30,031 nt of DNA from a virus. The first letter of the stretch is position 1. Every line of letters starts with the position of its first letter. The stretch is taken from the IMG/VR virus record IMGVR_UViG_3300010885_001575, positions 1-30,031 of that record; one strand, given 5' to 3'. A program made the translations under genes and the position numbers. Of this stretch, positions 1-25,371 are shown one piece after another. The notes below the pieces were generated by a model, which worked only from the letters and a program-made list of their open reading frames with translations, was not told where the DNA came from and searched no databases.

Positions 1-1340
1 AGCAGGACATCGACACCCATTGGAAGTCTTTCCACCAAGGCAAGGGCGTCTCCATCGGCACGCTGTTTCACCATGCCAAACTTGGCGGGTACTCAGCGCC
101 GAGCCGCGCCGAAGAGCGAAAGTCGGCAGTCGAGGATTTCTCCACCTACATCCAAGCGCAGCAGGCCACAAACCCAGAAAGGGTAGAGACAAACCCAGAT
201 CAGGCATCTGCGCCAGCCCCGTACTGGAAAGAACTGACCCTCGACCTGACAAAACTCTACCCTGTTGAATATCTGATTGATGGCTTTCTCGCCCATAGTT
301 TCTCGGTCACCGCCGGCCAGCCTGGTGTCGGCAAGACCACGGCAATAATCTCGGTCTGCCTTATCGCCGCTGGATTCACCTTATCAGACTCCCCACTGAA
401 AACAGAATCCCGTAGAAAGATTCTTTATGTCACCGAGGATGCCAATCAAGTCAGGCAATCTCTTTATGCATACATTAAATATTGGAATCTCGACCCCATC
501 GAAGTCGCCCATTGGTTTATCGTCATTGAATCAAAGCGCTCCAAAGTGCCAGAGATATTATTATTGGCAGAGAATGTCATCAGACACACAACTACTGAAC
601 GGCCATTCCTGATAATAGATACTTCTAATGCGACATTAGAGATAGATAATGAGAATGATAACTCTGAAGTCGGCAGTTATATGGCCGCCATCAAGCAGAC
701 TATCTACACTCAACTCTCAACCCCGATCAAGATCATCACCCACACCGCCAAGACCGCGCAAACAAGTGATGACAGCGCCTTGGCCCGTGGCGCATCTGCC
801 TTCACAGGTGACGCAACCCTGACCGCCATCCTGTTCATGGACGAGGACAAGAACCGCTTCATGCGGCTCATCAAGACCCGATACGAGCCGATCCACCGCG
901 AGATCAGCTTTCAGACCCACATCCACAACGAAGTCGTGACAACCCGTCACGGCAACATGCAGGATGTCCAGTGCATCACTGTCATCCCATACCCGACATC
1001 TGAATCCAGCCGCAAGCAGGAGGCGGCAGCCAGGATTGAGGACAGCAAGTCTCTACGCATCATGGACAAGTGCGACACGGCGGCAGCATTCGTCCAATCC
1101 ATCATCAATGAACACCCAGAAGGGGTCATTATCCGCAAGGGATCAAACGCCCCAAGGGACTGCCGCAGCCATCCAGATGCCTACAAATTGGATTGGGCAG
1201 ACATCTATGCGGCAGTCCCAGGATCATCAAAAGGGGATGTAAAACGGGCCATTGGGATCTCCATCTTCAGAAGATTTGCACCCAATCCAATCAATAATTC
1301 GTGGAACATTTTGTCCCAAGGTGGCCGCCATGAGGGCTGA
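1..1340 (+). CDS. Primase-helicase (RepA/D5-like ATPase), 5' truncated
   Basis: The frame is open from the left edge (first full codon at base 3) to a TGA at 1338-1340, so the N-terminus lies outside the window. The first visible residues (DIDTHWKSFH...IGTLFHHAKLGGY) resemble the end of a PriCT-type domain that joins a primase/polymerase part to a helicase part. A Walker A motif, GQPGVGKTT, is encoded at 315-341, and a Walker B-like FLIIDTSNA follows from about 606. This fits the RecA-like AAA_25/RepA ATPase group of phage and plasmid replication proteins, which unwind and prime DNA at the origin. A candidate origin follows directly downstream. The region about 430-680 is more AT-rich than its flanks. 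ATPase assignment is firm; the missing primase half is inferred. Confidence 0.85.
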   Translation, partial: QDIDTHWKSFHQGKGVSIGTLFHHAKLGGYSAPSRAEERKSAVEDFSTYIQAQQATNPERVETNPDQASAPAPYWKELTLDLTKLYPVEYLIDGFLAHSFSVTAGQPGVGKTTAIISVCLIAAGFTLSDSPLKTESRRKILYVTEDANQVRQSLYAYIKYWNLDPIEVAHWFIVIESKRSKVPEILLLAENVIRHTTTERPFLIIDTSNATLEIDNENDNSEVGSYMAAIKQTIYTQLSTPIKIITHTAKTAQTSDDSALARGASAFTGDATLTAILFMDEDKNRFMRLIKTRYEPIHREISFQTHIHNEVVTTRHGNMQDVQCITVIPYPTSESSRKQEAAARIEDSKSLRIMDKCDTAAAFVQSIINEHPEGVIIRKGSNAPRDCRSHPDAYKLDWADIYAAVPGSSKGDVKRAIGISIFRRFAPNPINNSWNILSQGGRHEG

Positions 1341-1443
1341 AATCAGTGCTCTGGGGCAAGTCGAGGAGTCGGAGATACCCCGAAGATACCTCGGAGATCC
1401 GTATCCCCGACAAAGTGATGCGCTTTGGGATAACCCTGTGGAG

Positions 1444-1452
1444 TTATCCACA
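1444..1452 (+). promoter_or_regulatory. DnaA box (TTATCCACA)
   Basis: TTATCCACA matches the high-affinity bacterial DnaA box TTATNCACA exactly. It is followed at 1455 by TTATCACAA, a spaced partial copy. It lies inside the iteron-like cluster. Confidence 0.6.
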
Positions 1453-1566
1453 GGTTATCACAAGCCTAATCAGCGATTTTTGAGGGGCTTGACAAGTCGA
1501 GGATACCGAGGATTTTTCCCATGGGGGGTATCTTCGACTTGGTATCCTCGACTAAGGAGCTTGACA

Positions 1567-1902
1567 GTGAAAAGTTATCCACAGGCAGATGAATGGAAAG
1601 ATGATGAGCGCGTTTTGTGCAAAAACTGCTCGAACTTGGAGTCGAGGATACAGCACTGGAACTTCACGGCAGAGGACTTTGAGAAGTTCAGAAGGCTCAA
1701 CGAAAAGCCAGCGCAATGGATGTTTGAATCGGTGCTGGTCAAGAACGGCTGGGCCAAGGTTTCGTTCAGTCAGGACTTTTGTACAAGTACCGACACTTTG
1801 TGCATTCCAGATGTGCCGCACCGCTGCCACCTGTTCGCAGATCAGGATGCCGCAAAGCCTGCCGAGTCCGTAGAATCACCTGCATGGTGGGAATTGACCT
1901 AA
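1567..1902 (+). CDS. Small Cys-containing protein of unknown function (111 aa)
   Basis: The frame is open back to 1252, but the best start is GTG at 1567 because AAGGAG (1554-1559) sits 7 bases upstream. ATG starts at 1252 or 1330 have no good ribosome site and would translate the repeat array. The protein begins MKSYPQADEW and carries CKNC near residue 18, then further Cys residues around 75-90, so it may bind a metal. I do not recognise the family. It lies between the helicase and a VRR-NUC nuclease and overlaps the nuclease start by 19 bases, which suggests a replication or DNA-processing accessory. The reading frame is well supported by position; the function is unknown. Confidence 0.65.
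   Translation: MKSYPQADEWKDDERVLCKNCSNLESRIQHWNFTAEDFEKFRRLNEKPAQWMFESVLVKNGWAKVSFSQDFCTSTDTLCIPDVPHRCHLFADQDAAKPAESVESPAWWELT
1575..1583 (+). promoter_or_regulatory. Second DnaA box (TTATCCACA)
   Basis: This is an exact second TTATCCACA in the same orientation, 131 bases from the first. It falls within the first codons of the gene that starts at 1567. Two exact matches so close together are unlikely by chance, which supports a host DnaA-assisted origin. Confidence 0.55.
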
Positions 1903-2258
1903 AACGCAAAAGGAAAAGTATTGAGCATGCCGAACAGGTCAAGCTGGTGCAGCGCGTCAGGGCTTTCTATCCGGATGTGCTGATTGCGGCGATACCCAAC
2001 GGGGGCGACAGATCGGCGTCAGAGCGCGTTAGGCTGCATGGTGAGGGTGTACTGGCTGGAATGCCTGATCTGTGCGTCCTGCGGCGATCCAAGGGCTTTG
2101 GCGGGTTGTTCGTGGAGATGAAGACAAAGGTCGGGGTTGTCAGCAAAGAGCAGGGTTGCATTGCAAAGCAACTGAACAGCGAGGGCTACCTGTGCGTTAT
2201 CGCCAGATCAGCCGCAGAAGGTTTCAAAATCATTGAGGAATATTTACATGAGCCGTGA
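1884..2258 (+). CDS. VRR-NUC domain nuclease (124 aa)
   Basis: This is a compact PD-(D/E)XK-fold nuclease. From the ATG at 1884 the family marks appear in order: E17 in HAEQ, IPNGGDR at 37-43, EGVLAGMPDL at 54-63 (catalytic D62), and the FVEMKT motif at 76-81 (E78, K80). The length fits stand-alone phage VRR-NUC proteins, which are thought to act as Holliday-junction or structure-specific nucleases during replication, recombination or packaging. The ATG at 1884 overlaps the previous gene by 19 bases. An upstream in-frame start at 1779 would add 35 residues that do not look like the family, so I rejected it. The stop overlaps the next start. Confidence 0.9.
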   Translation: MVGIDLKRKRKSIEHAEQVKLVQRVRAFYPDVLIAAIPNGGDRSASERVRLHGEGVLAGMPDLCVLRRSKGFGGLFVEMKTKVGVVSKEQGCIAKQLNSEGYLCVIARSAAEGFKIIEEYLHEP

Positions 2259-2757
2259 CACATTGGCCGAGATGGCCGACCAAAGCGCTGCGAACATTGC
2301 GGCAGCCCAAAGCAAAAAGGCTGAACTCAGCGTAGCCAACAAGGCCATTCATGCATTCGGTGGTGAGGATGCCGCACTCGAATACATTGCAAATGGCGGC
2401 ACGACTTCCGCACTGTGCAAGGTATTGGGGATTGGTACGGCTACCTTTGATCGATGGGTTGACAGAGGCGGCGAGGGGCGCACGGCGGCTTACGCTCGCG
2501 CACGCACGCGAAGCGCTCAGAGTTTAGCAGAGCAAACCATCGACATTGCAGACGCTGCGACACCGCAACAGGCGCAGGTGGCCAAGCTGCGCGTGGACAC
2601 CAGGCGCTGGCTGGCCGGCAAGCTCAACGATGACTACAGTGACAAGCCTGCGCCTCTGGTGAACATCGACCTTGGCAGCTTGGCGCTGGACGCATTGAGG
2701 CATCGATCTGTCACGCCCGTAAACGGGGTTGTCAACGACACGATTGACGAGGGTTAA
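2248..2757 (+). CDS. Terminase small subunit (Sf6-like TerS)
   Basis: The small terminase subunit recognises the packaging site and loads the large subunit. The 169-residue protein has a helix-turn-helix at about 45-72 (TTSALCKVLGIGTATFDRWV), then YARARTRSAQSLAEQTIDIAD and AKLRVDTRRWLAGKL, the layout of Sf6-type small terminases. GAGGAA at 2235-2240 sets the start at ATG 2248 rather than 2233, with 11 bases of overlap with the nuclease gene. The large subunit does not follow directly; it begins about 2.3 kb downstream after a recombinase cassette. Confidence is good for a TerS-like protein and moderate for its being this phage's working TerS. Confidence 0.82.
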   Translation: MSRDTLAEMADQSAANIAAAQSKKAELSVANKAIHAFGGEDAALEYIANGGTTSALCKVLGIGTATFDRWVDRGGEGRTAAYARARTRSAQSLAEQTIDIADAATPQQAQVAKLRVDTRRWLAGKLNDDYSDKPAPLVNIDLGSLALDALRHRSVTPVNGVVNDTIDEG

Positions 2758-2776
2758 CCCTCGGTTTCTGGCGCCT

Positions 2777-2840
2777 CGATGCCGCCGGCTGGCCCCCGCC
2801 GCGCCGCGACCCCCCCCGTCCCGCGCCTTGGCGGGGGCGG
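2777..2840. other. Extreme GC-rich tract in the terS-recombinase gap
   Basis: This stretch is almost entirely G and C, with a run of eight C at 2810-2817 and a short imperfect hairpin around 2820-2837. No U-run follows, so it is not a standard intrinsic terminator. I see no coding support. The contrast with the A/T tract 40 bases downstream is sharp. Confidence 0.5.
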
Positions 2841-2877
2841 CTGATGCGGCACTAATCACCTACCAACCTACAACCCT

Positions 2878-2930
2878 AAAAAAAATTTTTTTTAAAAACC
2901 CCTTGACAACCCGCCAACCTGCTACATAAT
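2878..2930 (+). promoter_or_regulatory. Sigma70-type promoter with A/T upstream tract
   Basis: TTGACA at 2903-2908 and CATAAT at 2925-2930 are separated by 16 bases, matching the consensus at all six and five of six positions. An A8-T8-A5 tract at 2878-2898 lies just upstream, where an UP element would sit. The start of transcription would fall near 2937, about 30 bases before the recombinase ATG. No terminator is seen until 12404, so this promoter could drive everything from the recombinase to the capsid gene. Confidence 0.75.
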
Positions 2931-2967
2931 TGCACTGTCAGTCAATAATTTAACAGAGAGAGCAACT

Positions 2968-3636
2968 ATGACAGTCTACGGGTATGTGAGGGTGAGCACT
3001 ACAGAGCAGGTGGACAACACCAGCATGCAGGAGCAGAGGCAGCAGATCAACGGCAACGCGATGAGCCACAACCTAGCCATCTGGCAGTTCATTGAGGATG
3101 GCGGCGTGAGTGGCGCTGACCCTTTCTTTGCACGGCTGGAGGCCAACGGCATCACGCTCCAGCAGGGCGACACTGTGATCGTGGCCAAGCTGGATCGGTT
3201 CAGCCGTGATTTGCTTGATGCCTTGCAGTCGATCAAGAAGTGCAAGGAGCTTGGCGTCAAGCTCATCATCAACGGGCATGGGGATGTCACTGACAGCAGC
3301 AACATCTACGCGCAGTTGATGCTGGAGATCCTTTGCTCATTTGCCGGCCATGAGCGCAGAGTGCTGAAGGAAAGGCAGAAGCAGGGGCAAGCCGCCAAGC
3401 GCAAGGCTGGTGGCCATCTGGGTGGCAGCGCCAAGTTCGGGTATGCGATCCAAGGGACGGGTCAGGCGGCAGTCCTGGTGGCCAAGCCTGAAGAGCAGGC
3501 CGCACTGAAGTACGCGAAAGAGATGCGTGCGACAGGAATTTCGTTTAGGGCAATATCGGCAATTTTAAAAACCAGCCACAAGGTCATTGTTTCTCACGAA
3601 GCAATCCGCAGGGCATTACAAGGAGAGACAGCATGA
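2968..3636 (+). CDS. Serine recombinase (resolvase/invertase family)
   Basis: The enzyme cuts and rejoins DNA at specific sites through a serine nucleophile. The N-terminal catalytic domain shows YGYVRVST (R8, catalytic S10), SMQEQ at 19-23, and the AKLDRFSRDLLDAL arginine segment (R77, R80). The long E helix carries GHERRVLKERQKQG at 127-140. The C-terminal part (about 148-222) contains GGHLGGSAKFGYA and a helix-turn-helix-like end. At 222 residues it is a small serine recombinase, shorter than large phage integrases. It starts 37 bases after the promoter -10 and overlaps the next gene by four bases (ATGA). It could be a resolvase for genome multimers, an invertase or an integrase; no inverted or att-like sites were identified. 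Confidence 0.9.
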   Translation: MTVYGYVRVSTTEQVDNTSMQEQRQQINGNAMSHNLAIWQFIEDGGVSGADPFFARLEANGITLQQGDTVIVAKLDRFSRDLLDALQSIKKCKELGVKLIINGHGDVTDSSNIYAQLMLEILCSFAGHERRVLKERQKQGQAAKRKAGGHLGGSAKFGYAIQGTGQAAVLVAKPEEQAALKYAKEMRATGISFRAISAILKTSHKVIVSHEAIRRALQGETA

Positions 3637-15208: not shown

Positions 15209-15973
15209 ATGGCAGATACCACCACCACCAACCTACTGCTGACGAAGCCAGAGGTAGGCGCATCGACAGACACCTGGGGGACGAAGATAAACACCGACCT
15301 GGACTCGGTGGACTCAATCTTTGCCGCAGCCGGTACAGGCACAAGTGTTGGCTTGAATGTCGGTTCTGGTAAGACATTGGCGGTGGCCGGAACGCTGACT
15401 GCTTCTGGGACGCTGACTGCTTCTGGTACTCAGACATTTACTGGGACTACGAGGTTTGGGGGGGCTACATCAGGCAATACTACATTGGCGGCTACTGCGG
15501 TGGCTGGCACTACAACTCTTACGCTGCCTGCTGCTACCGATACTTTGGTTGGTAAAGCGACCACAGACACCTTAACAAACAAGACGCTGACCAGCCCCAC
15601 GCTGACAACGCCAAACATCGACTCAGCACAGTTTGCCACTGTGTCTGGGACAGCGCCTATTTATCCTTGCCGCGCATGGGTGAACTTCAACGGCACTGGC
15701 ACTGTGGCTATTCGTGCTAGTGGGAATGTGTCAAGTATTACGGATAACGGTGTTGGTAATTACACAGTTAATTTTACAACCGCCTTGCCTGATGCAAATT
15801 ATTCTGTAGGGACAGAAACGGTAGATACAACTGCTGGTAACAATGCCTATGTACGAGAAAGCGCTTCGTCACGGGCAACACGCACAAGTTCTGCGTATCA
15901 AATATCCGCCGTCCAAACTGCAAGTTTTACACTGACAGATTGTAATTTTGTTTGTGTTTCATTTTTCCGCTGA
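15209..15973 (+). CDS. Tail fibre / receptor-binding protein (254 aa)
   Basis: The N-terminus [20 protein letters not shown] followed by [18 protein letters not shown] is the common opening of short phage tail fibres. The middle has low-complexity repeats: [17 protein letters not shown] and [16 protein letters not shown]. The C-terminal domain begins about residue 155 with [20 protein letters not shown], a widespread fibre tip. AGGAG at 15199-15203 sets the start. Bases from about 15720 on, which encode the tip, are clearly more AT-rich than the shaft. This suggests the receptor-binding end was exchanged. The host target is unknown. Confidence 0.85.
15392..15427 (+). repeat. 18-base tandem duplication in the fibre shaft
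   Basis: ACGCTGACTGCTTCTGGG occurs twice head to tail, the copies differing at one base. It encodes two TLTASG units, so the shaft may lengthen or shorten by slippage in frame. Confidence 0.75.
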
Positions 15974-22256: not shown

Positions 22257-23350
22257 GTCTAGGTGGACAAGATGATGCTGGCATTGGCGACTTTGAGCGC
22301 CGTCAATTTTTGCCGTACAACCAGCCCGAGCCTATGCCCTTACCTAGCGGTAATGTGGGGGCTGACCCGTACTCGCAGATCATGGGTCAGATGGGCGGTG
22401 GTGATCCATATTCGCAGATCATGTCTCAGATGCCAGTGCGGCAAAATCCATACGCCTACCCATCCGGTGGCGCACTTGGCGGCTACGACCCGCGCATGTA
22501 CAACAACGCATTTACAGGATCAAACAGCCGCCTAAATCTTAGCGGCCTTCTTGGCGGGGGTGGCAGCGTTAATTATGGTGATGGCGGCACAGGGGTCAGT
22601 TCAAACCCAGGCTGGGAAAGCATGACTCCTGCGCAACAGGCTGGCTACTACGCAGCAAACCCAACAATGGCCACCATTACTCAAATGGGCCAAGGTCTTT
22701 TTGGGAACACATCACTTGGACTGTTGCAAAATTACTTTAATCCTGGCTTTGTGAGCGAACAGGGTTTGATTGCAATGGGCGTCAACCCTGCCGCATATCA
22801 AAACGCAATAGAGAGTTTCCGAGGCAGTGAGATTGCCGCCATGAATGCAGGTTATCCAAGCGCTCAACAGAATAATATTGACGCCGGAATGGCAGTGGCC
22901 TCTGATGCAGAGGCTGCGGCACAACAGGACAATAATGTTGCCGCAGGAATGGCGGCTGCTGCTGATGCAGAGGCGGTTGCTGCTGATGCGGCGGCTGGTG
23001 GCGGCGGCGGTGATGGCGGCAGCAAGATAGTCTGCACGGCCATGAATCAAGAGTACGGCTTTGGATCGTTCCGCAACGCAGTCTGGCTCAAGTACTCAGA
23101 AAGCAAGTTGACTAAGGCGCACGAAGTCGGCTACCACGCGCTGTTCTTGCCGCTGGTTGACTTTGGCTTCAAGCAGGGTGACGGCAAGGTCAACCTGATG
23201 GTGCGCAAGTTCCTTGAGAGTTGCGCCCGTCACAGGTCACTTGACTTACGCGCTGAGATGCGTGGCACAAAGCGTGATCCAATTGGCCGCGCTTATCGTT
23301 TTGTTCTTGAGCCGCTGTGCTATGCGGTTGGCAAATTTAAGGGGTATTGA
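22253..23350 (+). CDS. Virion protein with Gly/Ala-rich linker and conserved C-terminal domain (365 aa)
   Basis: The start at ATG 22253 is an ATGA overlap. The N-terminal third has a duplicated DPYSQIMGQM/DPYSQIMSQM unit and Gly-rich loops. The middle holds a duplicated Ala-rich unit (GMAVASDAEAAAQQDNN then GMAAAADAEAVAADAAA) ending in a Gly run. The C-terminal domain (about 262-365) is conserved in phage tail-associated proteins: KIVCTAMNQEYGFGSFRNAV, HEVGYHALFLPLVDFGF, and IGRAYRFVLEPLCYAVGKF. The layout is head domain, flexible linker, terminal domain. I read it as a tail-tip or ejection component; the exact role is unknown. Confidence 0.72.
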   Translation: MSLGGQDDAGIGDFERRQFLPYNQPEPMPLPSGNVGADPYSQIMGQMGGGDPYSQIMSQMPVRQNPYAYPSGGALGGYDPRMYNNAFTGSNSRLNLSGLLGGGGSVNYGDGGTGVSSNPGWESMTPAQQAGYYAANPTMATITQMGQGLFGNTSLGLLQNYFNPGFVSEQGLIAMGVNPAAYQNAIESFRGSEIAAMNAGYPSAQQNNIDAGMAVASDAEAAAQQDNNVAAGMAAAADAEAVAADAAAGGGGGDGGSKIVCTAMNQEYGFGSFRNAVWLKYSESKLTKAHEVGYHALFLPLVDFGFKQGDGKVNLMVRKFLESCARHRSLDLRAEMRGTKRDPIGRAYRFVLEPLCYAVGKFKGY

Positions 23351-24114: not shown

Positions 24115-25371
24115 ATGGCAGATTTTGACTTTTCAAATCTTGGCAGCATGTTTGGCGGCGGCATGGGCGGCACGCCCACTGGTCTTGATGCGCTGCTGAG
24201 TGAAGACCAGCGCAAGCTGATGGGGCGCAACGCTGCCCTGTCAGCGGCTGCTGCACTGCTGCAAGCCAGTGGCCGCAGCACTACCCCCATCGGCTTGGGA
24301 CAAGCCCTTGGCTCGGCACTGCAAGCTGGCCAGCAGGGCTACAGCCAAGCGCGTGCTGGCTCGGTGCAGGATCTGATGGTCGGCGAGAAGCTGAAAGAGG
24401 CTCAAGACGAGCGTCAGCGCAATGTGGACTATTTTGAAATGCTGAAAAGAGCCGGCCAGCCAGCGCCAGCAATGCAGCCAACAATGCAGCCAGCAATGCA
24501 GCCACTGACGGGTGTGTCAGCGCCGATTGCTAGGCCAGCAGCAACTGGCCCATTTGCTAACTTGACCCCGCAGCAGCTTGCGCTGATGCAAGGCTTGTCA
24601 CGCAAGGAGGGTTTGCAGTTTGCGCTGGACGCCACCAAGCCAGAGGCATCACCAGAAGCCATTAGGACTCTAAACGCTTTGGGCTTAGCCCCTACTTTGG
24701 CAAACTTGCGCCTGCTTGACAAGCCAGAGGCATCACCAACAGAATCCAGATTGTTGAAAGATGCCGGAATGCCCGTCACCTTTGACAATATTGTGAAGTT
24801 GAGGCAGGCTGGGGCAAGCAATGTCAATGTCAGAGTTCCAGTGGACATGACAGGTGGGCAAAAGGGCTTTGAAAACGAGATGAAGCTCAGCGGTGCATTC
24901 AAGCAAGAGCCGATTTACAAAGACTTTAGCGACATGAAGTCTGCATACGGCCAAGTTGTATCGTCACTTGCCCAAGGCACACCAATCGGTGATGTCGCTG
25001 GCGCTACCAAGGTGATGAAGTTGCTTGATCCTGGCTCTGTCGTGCGTGAGTCTGAGCTTGGCATTGCAATGGCCGCTGCTGGTCGCATGGATCTTTTGCA
25101 GAATTACTTCAACAACTTGATGACCGGACAAAAGCTGACACCTACTCAGCGTGAAGATTTCCAGAGGTTGTCCAATGAACTCTACGCTGCCGCTGGTCAG
25201 GCTTACAACAACAAGCGTGCAGAGTACGAACAGTTTGGCAAAACTTACGGATTCAAAAACCTTGACACTGCACTTGGCGCACCGGCCACTGTTCCATCAG
25301 TTATGAAAAAGCCACCTGTCAGCGCTGGCAAAACCATGCAATGGGACGGCACTAAATTTGTCTTTAAATGA
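24115..25371 (+). CDS. Internal virion / ejection protein candidate (418 aa)
   Basis: The N-terminus is Gly/Met-rich, then Ala-rich helix (AALSAAAALLQASGRSTTPI). MQPTMQPAMQP is a short repeat. Two diverged copies of about 33 residues start with KPEASP (KPEASPEAIRTLNALGLAPT and KPEASPTESRLLKDAGMPVT). The C-terminal half holds a segment found in many phage virion proteins: IYKDFSDMKSAYGQVVSSLA, then MKLLDPGSVVRESELGIAMA and LTPTQREDFQRLSNELY. No lysozyme motif is visible. The order after tail hub genes fits an ejected protein. Confidence 0.72.
   Translation: MADFDFSNLGSMFGGGMGGTPTGLDALLSEDQRKLMGRNAALSAAAALLQASGRSTTPIGLGQALGSALQAGQQGYSQARAGSVQDLMVGEKLKEAQDERQRNVDYFEMLKRAGQPAPAMQPTMQPAMQPLTGVSAPIARPAATGPFANLTPQQLALMQGLSRKEGLQFALDATKPEASPEAIRTLNALGLAPTLANLRLLDKPEASPTESRLLKDAGMPVTFDNIVKLRQAGASNVNVRVPVDMTGGQKGFENEMKLSGAFKQEPIYKDFSDMKSAYGQVVSSLAQGTPIGDVAGATKVMKLLDPGSVVRESELGIAMAAAGRMDLLQNYFNNLMTGQKLTPTQREDFQRLSNELYAAAGQAYNNKRAEYEQFGKTYGFKNLDTALGAPATVPSVMKKPPVSAGKTMQWDGTKFVFK

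Follow-up and report, generated by a model that had tools for sequence, protein, structure and literature searches.

The region directly after the repA gene of an uncultivated freshwater phage is interpreted here, with a probability of about 0.8, as the replication origin of the phage, with the roles of RepA at its iterons, of the helicase-PrimPol and of a hairpin as proposed below. The origin is probably bound by RepA and assisted by DnaA, as judged from the DNA and its predicted proteins. This reading is based on the place of the region, its conservation in relatives, the GC skew, the co-variation and the domain make-up of the adjoining protein, and what is new is an origin combining features of the RSF1010, P4-alpha and pRN1 replicons. 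The binding of RepA and of DnaA, the role of the hairpin and a theta (bidirectional) mode are what we infer from these features. The candidate origin placed here by the first-pass annotation is largely upheld, with a layout kept in relatives and a skew minimum at the site in all 14 genomes analyzed. A literature search, of incomplete coverage, found no paper describing this origin.

The window, i.e., the whole stretch of DNA analyzed, is an entire IMG/VR contig of 30,031 bp and begins within repA. Its capsid and portal proteins belong to SU10 families, which, as far as these two head proteins go, agrees with a short-tailed phage. A RepA search yielded 46 contigs with a close RepA and a profile search 206 relatives, 80 of which were fetched for comparison; near-complete related contigs are 34-39 kb long, and the public relative MW202879.1 is circular with 36,472 bp. 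The latter entry is titled 'Myoviridae sp.' and is, by RepA, a close relative of this SU10-type phage. Plasmids gave partial matches only, mostly around PriCT-2. The features are as follows, in window coordinates.

3 to 1340, + strand: repA lacking its 5′ end; it encodes the end of PriCT-2, the RecA-like helicase (AAA_25) and a putative C-terminal DNA-binding domain
1008 to 1337, + strand: winged-helix-like C-terminal domain of RepA (AF2 model, pLDDT 80)
1251 to 1253, + strand: codon of Ile417 (numbering of the 445-aa fragment), a residue of the putative recognition helix
1360 to 1411, + strand: element A, kept in relatives, with direct 11-bp iterons at 1369-1379, 1380-1390 and 1391-1401, a partial unit at 1360-1368 and a closing inverted copy at 1401-1411
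1428 to 1459, + strand: element B, hairpin GGATAAC-c-CTGTGGA / TCCACAGGTTATC with a GTTA loop
1444 to 1452, + strand: exact DnaA box 1, TTATCCACA, in the loop and 3′ arm of hairpin B
1455 to 1462, + strand: TTATCACA, one base short of the DnaA box found at that place in relatives (alignment)
1495 to 1552, no strand assigned: element C, with one forward iteron (1496-1507), the centre TTTTTCCCATGGGG and two inverted iterons (1527-1538, 1541-1552)
1567 to 1902, + strand: downstream CDS with a likely GTG start, encoding a Cys-pair protein; homologue annotated in MW202879
1575 to 1583, + strand: exact DnaA box 2, TTATCCACA, inside the downstream CDS near its start
1640 to 1652, + strand: sixth iteron-like copy, coding (ESRIQ), inside the downstream CDS

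Within the interval 1357-1652, six matches to GTCGAGGATACC with at most two mismatches are found at 1368+, 1400-, 1496+, 1527-, 1541- and 1641+, and two weaker ones at 1360+ and 1379+. The six copies in both orientations described in the first-pass annotation are thereby borne out, as is their place directly after a RepA-type helicase gene, with the repA stop at 1340 and element A from 1360. The interval contains 48 near-identical 11-mer pairs against a shuffle mean of 0.85 and maximum of 5 (60 shuffles), and by this statistic it ranks first among 201 windows of the contig. Element A provides phased direct repeats at 11-bp spacing directly 3′ of repA, as in iteron origins, and element C has inverted repeats with arms of 15-16 nt (1495-1510/1538-1553 and 1493-1507/1527-1541). 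The sixth copy is absent from distant relatives and is probably incidental. An origin of the repeats in protein constraint was rejected; ORF 1252-1902 crosses them, and its frame relative to the repeats differs among relatives. The motif TTTGGTTA, reported together with GTG as a start site of the NrS-1 PrimPol (PMC8718748), shares only part similarity with the centre of element C, which varies around CCYWWRGGG. In 30-nt steps across 1201-1800, AT content reaches at most 63%, with no obvious AT-rich unwinding element.

Some 70 related viral contigs, with RepA identities as low as approximately 50%, have the same layout 3′ of repA, and the repeats are kept at the same place, which is the conservation that had been named as a check on the origin. 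In nearly all relatives, the order is element A, hairpin B with its DnaA box, element C and then DnaA boxes at the start of the next gene. Element A consists of iterons at 11-bp spacing ended by an inverted copy, and element C of inverted iterons around a CCYWWRGGG-like centre; close relatives have one forward copy and two inverted ones there, distant relatives two forward copies and one inverted. In most phages, elements A and C have the iteron unit in common, and between clades the unit is much less alike (TCGGAGATACC, TCGGCGCGACC, TCGGAGGGACC, TAAACCGGTAG and CTAATGCGGAA); the exception is L012, whose A array shows hardly any match to its element C.

The protein encoded directly upstream suits such a site. 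In the window, repA contains the AAA_25 helicase domain (E 2e-15), and its full-length relatives of approximately 730 aa carry PriCT-2 and AAA_25 (Pfam). The AF2 model of one full-length relative (pLDDT 71) matches, by structure comparison and also by Foldseek, NrS-1 PrimPol in its N-terminus (Z 12.0) and RSF1010 RepA (1g8y, Z 11.9), the best helicase fold matches being RSF1010 RepA and DnaB-like folds. As modelled, RepA is an NrS-1-type PrimPol followed by PriCT-2, an RSF1010-RepA-like helicase and a C-terminal winged-helix-like domain. The "D5-like" label of the first-pass annotation was wrong, AAA_25 with an RSF1010-RepA-like fold lying in one protein with a PrimPol. For the C-terminal domain, the best second-look matches were the CAP/CRP and cullin winged helices, which are weak (Z 4.4-3.4); Foldseek with this domain alone gave no significant match, the absence of P4 alpha's domain from its rows excluding nothing, and a search of the PDB by sequence returned nothing at E 0.01.

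Full-genome GC skew, proposed earlier as a check, also points to this site. In 14 of 14 genomes (MW202879 and 13 near-complete contigs), with linear contigs treated as circles by assumption, the detrended minimum is located 16-223 bp upstream of the repA end, and in the window it lies at 1319. Block permutation gave p <= 0.023 in each of the 14 genomes, and the minimum still adjoins the site when the 3 kb around it are left out. In MW202879, the genes on either side share one reading direction, so that a switch in gene orientation fails to explain the minimum there. The maximum varies between approximately 6 and 26 kb downstream, and fork direction is for this reason not settled by skew. Conservation in relatives and a switch in composition, both features of iteron origins, thus coincide at the site.

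Binding of the iterons by RepA is indicated indirectly by a match between one residue and one base. Among the 31 closest sequences, a single column of approximately 735 in RepA, an Ile/Val position in the putative recognition helix, perfectly separates the iteron base at position 8 (Ile-T in 21 of 21, Val-G in 10 of 10; ATACC-type versus GACC-type iterons), in a scan made after the pattern had already been seen in a table; the next best column carries 0.79 of the information. On a tree built from repA without its C-terminus, the trait changes six times by parsimony, always in step with the DNA, and three of the changes are forced by well-supported branches; a sign test on these three independent pairs gives p 0.25, three pairs being too few to reach significance. 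In the distant group, seven columns tie and base 4 follows the clade, and that scan is therefore uninformative. The match may possibly reflect exchange of a linked cassette of repA 3′ end and origin together with shared ancestry, a reading that concerns one step of the mechanism and not the identity of the origin. It is consistent with a codon only approximately 120 bp from the iterons, with the small number of independent pairs and with the behavior of base 4, but it would not predict one perfect column where many nearby columns are equally linked, nor the pair L013 and L017, whose hairpins and flanks are identical although both iteron cores and the Ile/Val residue differ between them.

Hairpin B folds as DNA with -12.3 kcal/mol (z -4.9), and its arms covary in the alignments. 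In the close group, 99.3% of cells in 14 pairs are paired, three pairs are changed on both sides, and the covariation score was reached in 0 of 500 shuffles. Across 27 distinct, related sequences, 11-13 pairs each were counted by a pair-seeking script that leans towards structure, and at 8 of the 13 positions of the stem two or more Watson-Crick types occur. The two exact TTATCCACA boxes noted in the first pass were confirmed at 1444 and 1575 and are the sole exact ones in 30 kb (0.12 expected; no shuffle yielded two), and in whole genomes exact boxes are found almost only at this site. The 13-base inverted repeat described alongside them is in fact a direct repeat of the exact 13-mer AGTTATCCACAGG (1442/1573); inverted repeats are present in the region, as the arms of element C and the hairpin at about 1428-1459. 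Distant relatives alone (contigs G004, G012, G013, G014 and G016-G019) have a further group of DnaA boxes approximately 1.45-1.52 kb after repA, frequently arranged as an inverted pair. The clade of L033, L035, L086 and L091 is without exact DnaA boxes; roughly where hairpin B would lie, its members have the palindrome GATGGATATGCACACATATGTGTGCATTCCATC, the hairpin in the L033/L086 clade being read by eye. The homologue of the downstream CDS in MW202879 had no Pfam or NCBIfam match.

The TTATCCACA boxes might instead be template sites for the primase of RepA next to the hairpin, in the manner of RSF1010 ssiA/ssiB, and not DnaA sites, which we consider unlikely. The complement TGTGGATAA holds GTGG, and NrS-1 PrimPol starts at 5′-GTG(G/A)-3′ (PMC8718748), a motif close to the GTG of pRN1; the RepA N-terminus has the fold of that enzyme (Z 12), and L034 and L116 carry paired changes that preserve the stem and spoil the DnaA box. 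A motif of three or four bases would not, however, keep the full DnaA consensus 9-mer, which is observed in the majority of relatives, frequently as tandem boxes spaced by 11 bp.

That the site is a control region of the operon at the level of RNA or transcription is improbable; on this reading, RepA bound at the iterons would repress the operon that encodes it, and the hairpin would function within the mRNA, between repA and the following gene. In its favor, transcription through the region is likely, element C has G-T pairs compatible with a structure on the + strand, the conserved TTGACA adjoins element C, and a 230-nt strand folds well (z -6.9). However, a sigma-70 scan of 1000-3100 gave a promoter-like site only at 2903, no Rfam family reaches its threshold, the DnaA boxes and skew minimum are left unexplained, and the changing orientation of element C copies between close and distant relatives fits protein sites better than one RNA fold. 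TTGACA occurs twice (1489-1494 and 1561-1566), within GCTTGACA, and is kept in close relatives with no matching -10 box.

That the serine resolvase (2968-3636) uses the region as a recombination (res) or partition site is very improbable. Its gene, 1.3 kb downstream, is what would suggest such a role, but this is a long distance, the 11-bp phasing, DnaA boxes and skew minimum suit an origin, and the repeats track RepA. Elsewhere in the contig, an A8/T8 tract and a near-consensus promoter (TTGACA-16-CATAAT) lie at 2877-2930 just before the resolvase gene. A G+C-rich inverted repeat around CGACCCCCCCC at 2790-2845 directly follows the gene for the small terminase and is possibly a cos or packaging site; a similar stretch is found at about the same place in distant relatives. 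Short tandem repeats within predicted genes are located at 24465-24504, 22951-22997 and 15392-15426.

The origin can be compared with several known systems. RSF1010 oriV comprises RepC iterons, the RepA helicase and the ssiA/ssiB hairpins with the RepB′ primase, and the phage region likewise places iterons and a hairpin beside a RepA-type helicase (a hexamer by analogy) and a primase. It differs in joining PrimPol, helicase and DNA-binding-like domain in one protein instead of separate RepC and RepB′, in the NrS-1 type of its PrimPol, in its DnaA boxes and in its 11-bp repeats. The repeats of RSF1010 are about 20 bp. P4 alpha, described together with RSF1010 (PMC4234260), similarly unites primase, helicase and a winged-helix origin-binding domain in one repeat-binding protein, the winged helix being only modelled here, with weak matches. 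By contrast, the P4 alpha primase is of the Toprim type (PMC4234260), whereas PrimPol, PriCT-2 and a RecA-like helicase are present here, with the origin directly 3′ of the gene and a DnaA-box hairpin. In pRN1 and BIP-1, a structured origin lies just 3′ of the gene for a PrimPol-helicase-winged-helix protein, and the BIP-1 protein also contains PriCT-2 (PMC4234260), a parallel to the phage; these replicons have an SF3 helicase and a large stem-loop without iterons, whereas the phage has a RecA-like helicase (AAA_25), iterons and DnaA boxes. Hairpin B carries a DnaA box as does the ABC-primosome A-site, where such a hairpin can load DnaB (PMC6127211), although in the phage only part of the box falls within the stem and loading by DnaA would be by analogy. 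Finally, in the PLE satellites of V. cholerae, the DNA-binding domain of the RepA initiator and the iterons covary as an exchangeable module (PMC8263062), with a RepA_N domain, semi-palindromic iterons of approximately 30 bp and swaps of whole domains, whereas one residue is concerned here.

In the proposed mechanism, RepA, made from the adjoining upstream gene, would bind the 11-bp iterons of elements A and C via its C-terminal winged-helix-like domain, melt or enter the DNA there as an RSF1010-RepA-like hexameric helicase, and prime synthesis with its own PrimPol domain. Hairpin B and the DnaA boxes would most likely come into play after strand opening, when the single strand would serve as a start or loading site, either for host DnaA-DnaB or for the primase of RepA. 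A more specific proposal, which is tentative, holds that in this one-protein phage initiator (PrimPol, RSF1010-RepA-like helicase and winged helix) a single recognition-helix residue would set specificity, Ile reading T and Val reading G, that the covarying DnaA-box hairpin would recruit the host replisome, and that related freshwater phages would fall into separate replication-compatibility groups.

For a large group of uncultivated freshwater phages (206 stretches found), the region offers a concrete origin that can be tested, and it joins iterons, a DnaA-box hairpin and a PrimPol-RepA helicase, features so far described in separate replicons. Furthermore, the relatives form a natural series of matched initiator-iteron pairs, in which the Ile/Val rule is testable by two point mutants. 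The series may reveal how the specificity of origins changes among phages, a change reported for PLE satellites (PMC8263062).
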